DNA of 64,000 nt from assembly GCA_029717555.1 (NCBI GenBank), contig JAMDHS010000002.1, positions 124,001-188,000 on the forward strand, given 5' to 3'. A model generated the notes under the pieces. That model did not search any database. It saw nothing but the letters and a program-made list of their open reading frames with translations, and was not told the origin of the DNA. The stretch comes from Peribolospora baueri (lineage: Eukaryota > Basidiomycota > Peribolosporomycetes > Peribolosporales > Peribolosporaceae). Positions 47,882 to 51,795 of the stretch are shown here, in pieces. Position numbers and translations under genes: made by a program. Each line of letters begins with the position of its first letter. Position 1 is the first letter of the stretch.

Positions 47882-50800
47882 ATGAGTTACAAACCCAAAT
47901 TGCTGAACACTTTCCTACTTCTTCTTGCCGGACTGGGCGTACAGCTCGGCCGAGCTCTTCCCAGCCCGAACCAGCTCGAAGAGATCAGACCTGCCGCATT
48001 CTTTGATCCTCGCGCCCACCTTCCCACGAACAATATCGCCAACACGACCTCTTCTCCCCAGCTCCAATTGACGCTCGTCAATTCGACGACGAAATGGCAA
48101 ACTGTCGACGGTAAGGACGCCCAACAGATCCTCGTCTGGATCAACAACACCTTCCCAAGCGTCGCCAGCGATGGATCCGATTCCAGCGGCTGGATCACTG
48201 AGCCGTACACTGTATGGATCGAATCGGATGCCGTCACGACGGTGCAAGCTCCAACGATTCAGCGGTTGCGACCGGGTGATCAAGTACGTCGGTCTCGCAG
48301 TCTCGAGGTACACACGAGCGGAATTGGCGACGACAGCTCTCACGTTTTCGCTTTTTCTGCTCTTTGTCCTGCCCACCGAATGGCAGGCCCGCGTCCAAGT
48401 CGGCGTTACGAACAAGCTGAATGTGATCCCCGGAACCCTGACCAACGGCACCGTGACGGTCAAGGACCCCCTCGGCAAAGTCGTCTTCTCCAACTCCACC
48501 AGTCTCATCGCCGGCATTCCCGAGTACAAGGACACAAACTCCAGCCTCTCTACTCACCAGGCTCCTGATTGGGTGAGTCCTCGAGTGCTGCCACCTGCAA
48601 ATAACAGGATGCAAATACATGGAACGACGTGTCATCGATATGTTTCGACGTTTTCGCTTGTCGCAGTGGGACGGTGCAAAGCTAGGCATCTTCGTACACT
48701 GGGGAGTCTACTGTGAGCGCTCTATTACGACCGCTCGTTCTCCTCCCTCATTGCTAACAAGTCCCTCCCCCTTTAGCCGTTCCTGCATGGTCGCCGTCCG
48801 GGAAGCAGGTATGTAGCGTTGCTTCGTTGACGTCTTTGGAGAAACGAGTTTCACAGTTGCCTTGTTCGGTCTCTTATAACAGTATGCCGAATGGTATGTG
48901 TCAGGGATTTTGCGCACACTTTTGAAGAGGTCTAAATGGGTTTCAGTTCGACCTTACCGGCCCTTCCCTGACGCAGGTGTAAGTCCTCAGTCGAAGTTGA
49001 GATGCACACAGGCGCCGCTAATCTCTTCACTCAATCTTGCCCAAATTCTTAGATTGGGTGAGTGAGAGCTCGTACACAATTTCAAGTACCGTGGGAACCC
49101 ATCTGTTAACACATGATATTGGCTTGGTTTTGAAATAGTACCAACAACATGTACCCAGGTAAGCAGTGACCGACCTTTCCGGTAGACGTTAAGTCTGACG
49201 TCCGAATGCCTAACCCGACGCACCGTACAGCAATGCTTCTTCATGGACCTGGACTTACCATAAAGAGACGGTGAGCATGTTCTACCGTACGAGGCCGTTT
49301 CGGAGCAGCTTCTGTGCGCTGACCTGGCTTCCATGACGAAAATGAAATAGTACGGTGAGCTGTCTCCTTGCAGGTTTCCTCTCAACCGATGAGAACGTGG
49401 CCTGAATCCTCTCATGTTCCATCTTTTTGATCAAGGCGAGAACTTTACGTACGACGACTTCATACCTCAATGGAACACCGACACCTTCAACGCCAGCGAG
49501 CTCCTCAGCACTATCGCGGGATCGGGTTCCAAATACTTTGTCATCGTGACGGTACGCACAAGTTTGTTGGCCTCGGCGTTTTGCCGGTTTTATGCTCGTC
49601 ATCCGTTTCCTGACGTGAGCCTCTTTCCCTTGCTTTGCTGGACTGCTTTAAGAAACACCATGACGGCTTCGCTCTGTTCGACACCAAGAATTCGAGCAAC
49701 AGGAACTCGCTCAAATATGGCCCCAAGTGCGTCCATTCACCCCTTCTCCTCTTCTCTACCCGTCTATCTTCTTTTCCTGCCTTTGCCCCGCTTCCATATT
49801 GACCTCCTGGTCCCTCTACTGCCGGCAATTGTTTTGTTTGCAGGAGGGATCTGGTCGCGGAGATCTTTGCCGCGGCACAGAAGGAGTATCCGGAACTGCA
49901 TCGAGGAGTATGTCGCTTTTTTTTTTTCAGGAACTTTGTCGAAACACCGGAGGCAAGGTCGATCTCACCTTTTCGTCGTGTAACCCTTGCAGACCTACTA
50001 CTCTCTCCCTGAGTGGTGAGAGCGCTCGCCAAGCACAGACTTTGCCGTCGCACCCGTCTCAGCTCACGCTCTCGTTCTTCTCTTTCAGGTACTCTCCCGC
50101 CTACAAGCCTTACGGCTTTATTAGCGAACCGGTGCACACCATCGCCCCCGGTCTCATGAGCGGTTCCGGCTGGCCGGGCGGATATGCTCCTCATGCCTAC
50201 TTCCCAAATCAAACAGAGGGGTATCTTGGTGAGTCAATCTGCCCAGTGCGCTACCCAACTGTATTGTGGAAAACCGCCTCATCATCCGTTCCTTGAACTC
50301 TCAATTTCCGACATCTCTCCTGCAGGCTATGTGGAGGTTGACGACTACTTGACCGATATTATGAAGCCGCACATGGAAACGCTCATGTATGACGAGCGGT
50401 ACCAGACGGAGGTCTTGTGGTGAGCTGGCCAGCGCGAAAATTCAGCGAATGAACTTTCTCAGCGATGACCTCACACCTCGCTTTCACTGTCATCTGTCGC
50501 CCGTCCTTCAGGTGCGACATCGGAGGCGCTACGATCTACGGAGACATTGCTGCCGATTGGTACAACTGGGCCAAAAACCAGTCGAGAGCGGTCACGGTAA
50601 ACAACCGATGTGGCGTTCCCTACAGCGACTACAAGTTGAGTTGATATTCGGCTCGATTTGCCCTGCCTGGCGTTCTAGCGCACGATGAACCTTATACTTG
50701 CACCTTCCCTGCCTTCTCTGCTTGACTACTCAGCACGCCAGAGTACGAGACGCTTAGCTATACCCAGCCGACGCCCTGGGAGAGCACCGAGGGCGCTGAT

Positions 50801-51795
50801 CCTTTCTCTTTTGGATACAATCGGTGCGCTGTTGAGGCAGGTCCTCCATCCGTTCGAGCTTTTGCTCACACAAGCTACTTGTTGCATGATGTAGGAACAC
50901 AACACCTTCCGGCTATCAGAATGCTTCGGTCATCATCCCCAAATTTGTAGAGTGCGTATGATGACCTGCTGTCCCGTCGTGAGCTCTCACCATGCTGACT
51001 CCATGACAAATCGTTGGCCATTTTGGTGAATAGCATCGTGTCCAAGAGTGGGTCTTCTTTATCATCACAACCATAGAACGTTTCGTCTAGTGCCTCGCTT
51101 CCTCCTCATTTGGTTTGCCGTTCTTGTTGCCCTTCATTCCTTTCCGACTATGTTTGCCTGCAGATGGCAACTATCTGCTAGATATTGGTGAGCAGTTTTG
51201 GCTCTCTCTCTATTCTTTTTTTGTAAAAGTGCCGGCTGGCGATTAATTTATCCTCTGCTTTCTTACGCCCTGCCCAACCAGGCCCTCACGCAAATGGCAC
51301 GGTTGTCGCTGAAGAAGTGACCCTCCTCCGTGACCTCGGCACATGGCTCTCCCACTCCGGTGAAGCCATCTACAACTCCTCCTACTGGGGTCCGACGTCT
51401 GAGGACGCGAACCTGCGCTTCACCACCCAGCCAGACGCGTTTTACATCACCTCGCTCGTTCAGCCAGGAGCAACTTTGACCACGAGCATGCCGGTGAGCG
51501 GGGCCGGCGATGGATGCTTCATCGATCAGCTCCGGATCGTGTGGTCCCTTGTTACGTGACGCTGTCATTGACCGCTTCATTGCTTCCAATTCGTACCTCC
51601 TCTGTACCAACACTTACCATCCGATGGAACTAGATCCCCATCCTCAAGGGCGACAAAGTGACCATGCTCGGCGGCACGGGCAAGCCACTGGACTGGTCCA
51701 TGAACGGTGGCAACCTCACCATCTCGGTCGATGTAGAAGAGGTGAAGAAAGTCCAGTGGGCTTGGACTTTCAAGGTCGCTTACGCCCAGGCGTAG
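47882..51795 (+). CDS. Secreted alpha-L-fucosidase, glycoside hydrolase family 29
   Basis: A gene of at least 18 exons, ATG at 47882-47884, stop at 51793-51795. The first 26 residues are a signal peptide (MSYKPKLLNTFLLLLAGLGV, cut near ALPSP). An N-terminal beta-rich region with several N-glycosylation sequons follows. The GH29 barrel starts at WDGAKLGIFVHWGVY and SVPAWSPSGKQ. It includes YAEWYWYQQHVPSNASSW, ENFTYDDFIPQWN, YFVIVTKHHDGFALFD, and VLWCDIGGA, where Asp is the expected nucleophile, then NNRCGVPYSDY. A C-terminal beta domain follows. The enzyme removes alpha-L-fucose from glycans outside the cell. Between 48883 and 49354 the exons are 11, 2, 5, 20, 40 and 4 bases. All joins use GT-AG sites and keep one frame. 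Confidence 0.9.
48977..48978 (+). other. Proposed 2-nt micro-exon (GT) of the fucosidase gene
   Basis: The two bases lie between an acceptor ACGCAG and a perfect donor GTAAGT. Skipping them gives a TGA after YAE; including them, with the next 5-base exon at 49053-49057, restores the conserved EWYWYQQH reading. Flanking introns are 83 and 74 bases. Confidence 0.75.

Follow-up and report, generated by a model that had tools for sequence, protein, structure and literature searches.

Exons of 2–5 bp are cited for Arabidopsis, Drosophila, and human in the introduction to a study of Fusarium (PMC12940212), and exons of a single nucleotide have been published with RNA evidence in Arabidopsis (PMC4674806) and in Fusarium (PMC12940212). 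The Fusarium exon, which lies in the CYP621A gene, was discovered because no in-frame junction could be made between the exons on either side of it, and the same report states that such exons are often overlooked by annotation (PMC12940212). For the 1-nt exon of Arabidopsis APC11, the authors favor intron definition combined with successive intron removal (PMC4674806). Exons smaller than the 2-nt exon considered below, which the initial annotation of the locus had placed near the smallest known, are thus already in print.

The locus lies within a stretch of 64,000 nucleotides (hereafter the window). In our best explanation overall, to which we assign a probability of roughly 0.87, it is an intact and very intron-dense fungal gene for a GH29 alpha-L-fucosidase, in which seven short U2-type introns would cut 82 nt of strongly conserved coding sequence into a run of six micro-exons that are spliced by intron definition and ordered removal. 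The coordinates of the run and of other features of the gene are collected in the table. If the term micro-exon is limited to internal exons that lie between two spliceosomal introns and do not exceed 30 nt, then five of the six exons, each of 20 nt or less and flanked by canonical AG and GT, qualify by size, and the 40-nt exon exceeds the limit.

Table. Features of the predicted fucosidase gene (window positions)
Feature	Position	Strand	Length (nt)	Content and remarks
GH29 alpha-L-fucosidase gene	47882..51795	+		23 exons, no internal stop; PF01120, PF16757
Exon 4	48777..48808	+	32	Flanks the run upstream; ends in ...SPSGKQ
Exon 5	48883..48893	+	11	Y, A, E plus two W226 bases; donor 4.7, preceding acceptor 4.3
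Intron 5	48894..48976	+	83	GTATGT...ACGCAG
Exon 6	48977..48978	+	2	GT: W226 (third base), Y227 (first base)
Intron 6	48979..49052	+	74	GTAAGT...TCTTAG
Exon 7	49053..49057	+	5	End of Y227, W228
Exon 8	49139..49158	+	20	
Exon 9	49231..49270	+	40	
Exon 10	49351..49354	+	4	Y249 and first base of G250
Exon 11	49436..49551	+	116	Rest of G250, then ENFTYDDF
Exon 14	49993..50015	+	23	
Exon 20	51034..51047	+	14	Further micro-exon of the gene
Exon 21	51164..51187	+	24	

The complete reading joins its 23 exons across 22 introns into a coding sequence of 1941 nt and a protein of 646 amino acids. This protein matches the Pfam alpha-L-fucosidase profile PF01120 (E=5.2e-82) over residues 180-550, covering profile positions 13-345 of 345. 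The C-terminal domain PF16757 is matched with E=2.8e-5 and 25.0 bits, marginally below its cut-off of 25.6. Among 7992 candidates scored, 4212 proteins match it with E <= 0.001, and the best of these, at about 50% identity, come from Agaricomycetes (50% over 92% for the top one). D422, which we take to be the catalytic nucleophile of GH29, is aligned with D in 115 of the 116 homologues; the motif KHHDGF begins at residue 289. The segment YAEWY, which is spread over the first exons of the run, falls in the Thermotoga enzyme chain on residues 64-68, of which E66 and W67 presumably line the active site. On the profile match, the aspartate, and the HHDGF motif, the predicted product is a GH29 alpha-L-fucosidase. 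Elsewhere in the gene, intron 17 (window 50635-50733) has a very poor donor (GTTGAG, -6.8), below those of all 36 introns of the yardstick set described below, and the protein still continues correctly across it (VPYSDYNTPEY).

Joined together, the six exons supply 82 nt, equivalent to 27 codons with one base left over, and no individual exon length is divisible by three. Their translation aligns without gaps with YAEWYWYWQHNPANASS... of Dendrothele, and likewise with the Dendrothele/Schizophyllum group. The predicted spliced sequence across the run contains YAEWYWYQQHVPSNASSWTWTYHKETYGENF. The residues that depend on the smallest exons are strongly conserved: W226 is W in 112 of 116 homologues, Y227 is Y in all 116, Y249 is matched in 113, and G250 in 114. 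If the 2-nt exon is omitted, the frame reads GAA TGA, and this exon would therefore set the frame.

To score alternative paths through this DNA, we used a profile of 47 columns derived from 116 of 120 homologues, with the window protein itself and four broken-looking models excluded. A spliced-profile dynamic programme was allowed GT-AG introns of 45-170 nt and exons of any size, with no penalty for introns and no weight on splice-site strength. Its unconstrained optimum (132.82 bits) is identical to the six-exon path, and alignments to single homologues returned identical exons in 18 of 18 cases (six of the 120 homologues, each at three intron costs). Once exons shorter than 3 nt were disallowed, the top-scoring path reached 119.17 bits, which is 13.7 bits lower, and it read YAEWYSSYQQH with an extra residue and used donors of -4.6 and -8.8. 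Larger minimum exon sizes gave 90.4 bits (5 nt) and 80.3 bits (8 nt). These results uphold much of the initial annotation, which had listed exons of 11, 2, 5, 20, 40, and 4 nt (each is found at its coordinates with AG before and GT after), had described the introns as a uniform 72-83 nt (the seven measure 74, 83, 74, 81, 72, 80, and 81 nt), had held that the frame is kept only by these exons (the same path is the optimum), and had recognized YAEWYW as a conserved GH29 segment (consistent with the gap-free alignment and the conservation of W226 and Y227).

The further assertion that the match is not due to chance is also borne out, since shuffled or substituted DNA rarely attains the real score. 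Dinucleotide shuffles of the whole stretch reached it in none of 200 trials (maximum 64.1), nor did shuffles of exons 6 and 7 with introns 5-7 (0/200, maximum 125.5) or of the 2-nt exon with introns 5-6 (0/200, maximum 127.5); for the 4-nt exon together with introns 9-10, a single shuffle of 200 reached it. Substitution by other DNA of the window attained the score in 0 of 300 trials for the whole stretch, 0 of 800 for exons 6 and 7 with introns 5-7, 2 of 1500 for the 2-nt exon with introns 5-6, and 0 of 500 for the 4-nt exon with introns 9-10. Based on the 2/1500 substitutions and 0/200 shuffles, the 2-nt exon alone, with site strength ignored, is roughly a one-in-a-thousand fit.

The strength of the splice sites was judged against a yardstick of 36 introns from the same genome, obtained by aligning housekeeping proteins to it (two beta-tubulin-type genes, actin, EF-1alpha, PP1, and an alpha-tubulin). 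One 365-nt intron was left out for its length, and the alignments of calmodulin, a second alpha-tubulin-like protein, a PP2A-like protein, and ATP11 were excluded because they were less secure. In the run, the scores of the seven donors span 4.7-10.5 (yardstick 5th percentile 3.7, median 9.1, minimum 3.1), and those of the acceptors span 1.5-5.4 (5th percentile 2.0, median 5.6). Three of the 14 sites fall at the 6th to 8th percentile, namely the acceptors of introns 7 and 9 (AAATAG, 1.5; 6th percentile) and the donor of intron 5 (8th percentile), and the run as a whole lies within native strength. The description of every flanking AG and GT as good thus holds for the donors as a set and is too generous for these three sites. 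With lengths of 72-83 nt, the run introns are shorter than the yardstick introns (median 94.5, range 69-227; Mann-Whitney p = 0.004) and also shorter than the other 15 introns of the fucosidase gene (p = 0.03). Every run intron has a loose YTNAY branch-point pattern within its final 50 nt, as do 28 of the 36 introns of the yardstick, an observation that adds little.

The smallest exon deserves separate treatment because it could in principle be read in other ways. An enumeration of single excisions found no equivalents for the 4-, 5-, 11-, and 20-nt exons. For the 2-nt exon, exactly three single excisions would give the same mRNA, which is possible because exon 5 adjoins GT in the genome. Exon 5 could accordingly extend over 48883-48895 and be followed, with no 2-nt exon, by one 157-nt intron with the borders AT-AG (48896-49052) or GT-AT (48898-49054). 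Such a length is possible in this genome, given that one of the 36 yardstick introns measures 227 nt. However, every version has non-canonical borders (AT-AG, TG-GA, or GT-AT). U12-type donors resemble ATATCC, and the AT-AG alternative begins with ATGTGTCA, which differs from this and does not identify it as a U12-type AT-AG intron. Moreover, the strong AG/GT/GTAAGT arrangement at the 2-nt exon would have to be a coincidence: among 468 AG/NN/GT places on both strands of the window it is the only one to reach thresholds set at its own scores, and substituted DNA attained the same protein score in just the 2 of 1500 trials given above. We consider a single non-canonical intron improbable. It is also conceivable that a GT after position 48895 was lost in sequencing or assembly (for example by a change of GTGTATGT to GTATGT), such that the true exon 5 has 13 nt and precedes one GT-AG intron of about 157 nt. 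The loss of a dinucleotide from a GT-rich place is plausible, but this explanation requires the same coincidence. It would also dispense with the 2-nt exon only, and the run of micro-exons would persist because no single excision can stand in for the exons of 4 nt and 5 nt. We therefore judge a lost GT very improbable.

The arrangement at 48977, in which AG is followed by GTGTAAGT, has the form of a recursive splice site, and the initial annotation had raised recursive splicing as a possible explanation. The site might then be a zero-nucleotide ratchet, or part of a stwintron, that adds no bases to the mRNA, and nested introns of the latter kind have been reported in fungi (PMC12403724; PMC5639578). 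The donor such a ratchet would use, GTGTAA, scores 1.4, and -1.3 after the first step, which is below all 36 yardstick donors, and complete removal would join TATGCCGAATG to ATTGG and produce the GAA TGA noted above, with its immediate stop. In addition, enumeration shows that introns 5 and 6, in either order, are the only canonical two-step removals that yield the conserved residues. No other canonical nested pair gives the conserved W-Y-W, and these two introns keep the GT, unlike a [D1,2] stwintron, in which an internal intron splits the donor of an external one and nothing of either is retained. The proposal of a recursive site that adds no bases is thus scarcely credible. Of a different nature is the idea that skipping of the 2-, 5-, or 4-nt exon leads to nonsense-mediated decay, with exon inclusion regulating enzyme output. 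Skipping of any one exon of the run would shift the frame, and a regulated micro-exon has been described in a fungal transcription factor (PMC11121469). However, nothing in the sequence points to regulation, and we consider this role unlikely; it would in any case supplement rather than replace the explanation that we favor.

We conclude that a true 2-nt exon is the best reading of this DNA and the sole solution among those with canonical GT-AG introns. The initial annotation had proposed to look for cDNA reads containing the two bases, but the non-canonical 157-nt AT-AG intron would yield an identical mature mRNA, which cannot distinguish a GT exon from such an intron, and so cDNA alone cannot prove the 2-nt exon.

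If the run of six exons is spliced as predicted, each of its introns is most likely recognized across itself, since each has its own donor and acceptor and lies near the short end of the genome's size range. Intron definition, which had been suggested from the beginning, remains the natural reading for a genome with short introns in which the run introns are shorter still than 36 others. U1 bound to a donor and the complex assembled on an acceptor could not share two bases, and the complexes at the two ends of the 2-nt exon would overlap, so that introns 5 and 6 would have to be removed successively. The order of these two steps would be free, because either order leads to the same product and leaves the flanking bases unchanged (GGT/GTAAGT and CAG/G). 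Ordered removal of one intron after another is likely for this gene. A more specific proposal, which we advance tentatively and at somewhat less than even odds, is that six exons essential to the frame, none of them divisible by three and three no longer than 5 nt, cannot be spliced except by ordered, intron-defined removals, and that the 2-nt exon represents a two-base step between overlapping complexes. If this is true, the run would be a natural test object for splicing without any exon recognition. Seven introns within 82 coding bases leave scarcely any exon for factors to bind, so that nature here provides an extreme case for both intron definition and ordered splicing, and the 2-nt exon in particular would challenge simple pictures of exon recognition.

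The micro-exons probably arose from independent intron gains that landed close together, by analogy with other carbohydrate-enzyme genes of basidiomycetes. When 22 introns were placed at random in 1941 nt, 38% of the 200,000 trials left a smallest exon of no more than 2 nt, and the 2-nt exon therefore needs no special origin. Exons of up to 5 nt numbered three or more in 10% of these trials. Seven introns fell within 82 nt in 0.27% of them, a frequency for a span that was chosen after seeing the data, and independent random gain thus fails to explain the clustering. Recent introner-type repeats are not apparent. In a genome search that leaves out common words and limits its scoring to first-look candidates, the 627-nt stretch matched nothing but itself, and among the matches listed within the 22 introns of the gene, the longest that involves a run intron is 10 bases.

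Other genes of this genome may also contain very small exons. Near its 3′ end, a beta-tubulin gene (L026; G000:C103:174000-177000) has an internal exon of 11 nt, CAACATGCAGG, whose omission lowers the alignment score by 26. Actin has a weakly supported 14-nt exon, without which the score drops by just 5. In the calmodulin gene (L055; G000:C162:68700-71200), the N-terminus is apparently split, with candidate exons of 7 nt (ACCGAGG) and 12 nt (AGCAGATCTCTG) that have good splice sites; the alignment is imperfect, with one stop further on. This N-terminus offers another natural test case for tiny exons in the genome.

The relationships of the fucosidase and of ATP11, another reading frame of the window, point in different directions. 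The nearest named records for ATP11 are mostly from Ustilaginomycotina (Tilletiaria, Sympodiomycopsis, Exobasidium, Ceraceosorus, and Pseudozyma) at 43-48% identity, with several closer records at 45-50%, and on this one marker the host probably belongs to that group. The first named match to ATP11, record P0127 (46%), is labelled as the fern Adiantum nelumboides and groups with the smut-relative fungi, and it is probably a contaminant. Unlike the case for ATP11, Ustilaginomycotina are absent among the named proteins in the 120 best fucosidase matches. In a quick tree of the window protein and 69 homologues chosen from the 120, the fucosidase adjoins a clade of 15 Agaricomycete proteins with an SH-aLRT value of 97 and a branch of 0.92, a long-branch join that may be false. 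It is possible that the gene was transferred from Agaricomycetes, or that it was solely retained beside them.

Four of the 120 public GH29 models (P0027, P0028, P0030, and P0033), all from basidiomycetes, look garbled, shortened, or devoid of residues in or beside this same stretch, hinting that small exons or introns trouble basidiomycete annotation. Automatic gene finders would probably miss the run with its 2-nt exon, which suggests how annotation can lose conserved enzyme segments in intron-rich basidiomycetes.

Among known systems, Fusarium CYP621A resembles the fucosidase gene as a fungal enzyme gene with a constitutive, ultra-small exon that is needed to complete a conserved motif (PMC12940212). 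It differs in that the host is an ascomycete and the exon has 1 nt, stands alone between two introns, and is documented by 20 orthologues and SRA reads (PMC12940212), whereas the fucosidase exon has 2 nt, belongs to a run of six in a basidiomycete, and is known from the DNA of one genome. The 1-nt exons of plant APC11 (PMC4674806) and VPS55 (PMC8831610) are likewise far below the size expected for exon definition, but they are lone tiny exons of plants and are reported there as experimentally verified. Closer in lineage are the P450 genes of Phanerochaete chrysosporium, an intron-rich basidiomycete with short introns, in which 41 genes have exons of 29 bp or less; in the portions of that report dealing with small exons, the smallest has 6 bp and no run of six is described (PMC1184071). 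The lipS genes of Dactylellina also combine very small exons with richness in introns in a fungus, and they differ in coming from an ascomycete and in having two 3-nt exons (PMC5639578).

Consecutive micro-exons are described outside the fungi as well. Flatworm MEGs share with the fucosidase gene the presence of micro-exon runs, but their exons are divisible by three, such that skipping varies the protein (PMC7653826), whereas none of the six exons here is so divisible and all are needed for the frame. By the definition given for that class, under which at least half of the exons are shorter than 70 nt and divisible by three (PMC7653826), only 2 of the 23 fucosidase exons (57 and 24 nt) qualify, which places the gene outside it. 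Adjacent micro-exons of 5 and 12 nt in plants (PMC8831610) and those in a peptidase M1 gene of Zygnema (PMC11096116) are similarly neighboring and overlooked by annotation; they comprise two exons rather than six and come with RNA evidence and evolutionary comparison (PMC8831610, PMC11096116). Among the matches listed from the open-licence PMC literature, we found no fungal run of six exons of which none is divisible by three. A basidiomycete alpha-amylase gene with massive intron gain is again alike in encoding a polysaccharide-degrading enzyme and in carrying 8-22 short, uniform introns, and it differs in belonging to Agaricomycotina and in its inferred transfer from an actinobacterium (PMC3584928). 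Tiny exons were known already, down to 1 nt in plants and Fusarium, and the run in the fucosidase gene is best regarded as an extreme new case of them.
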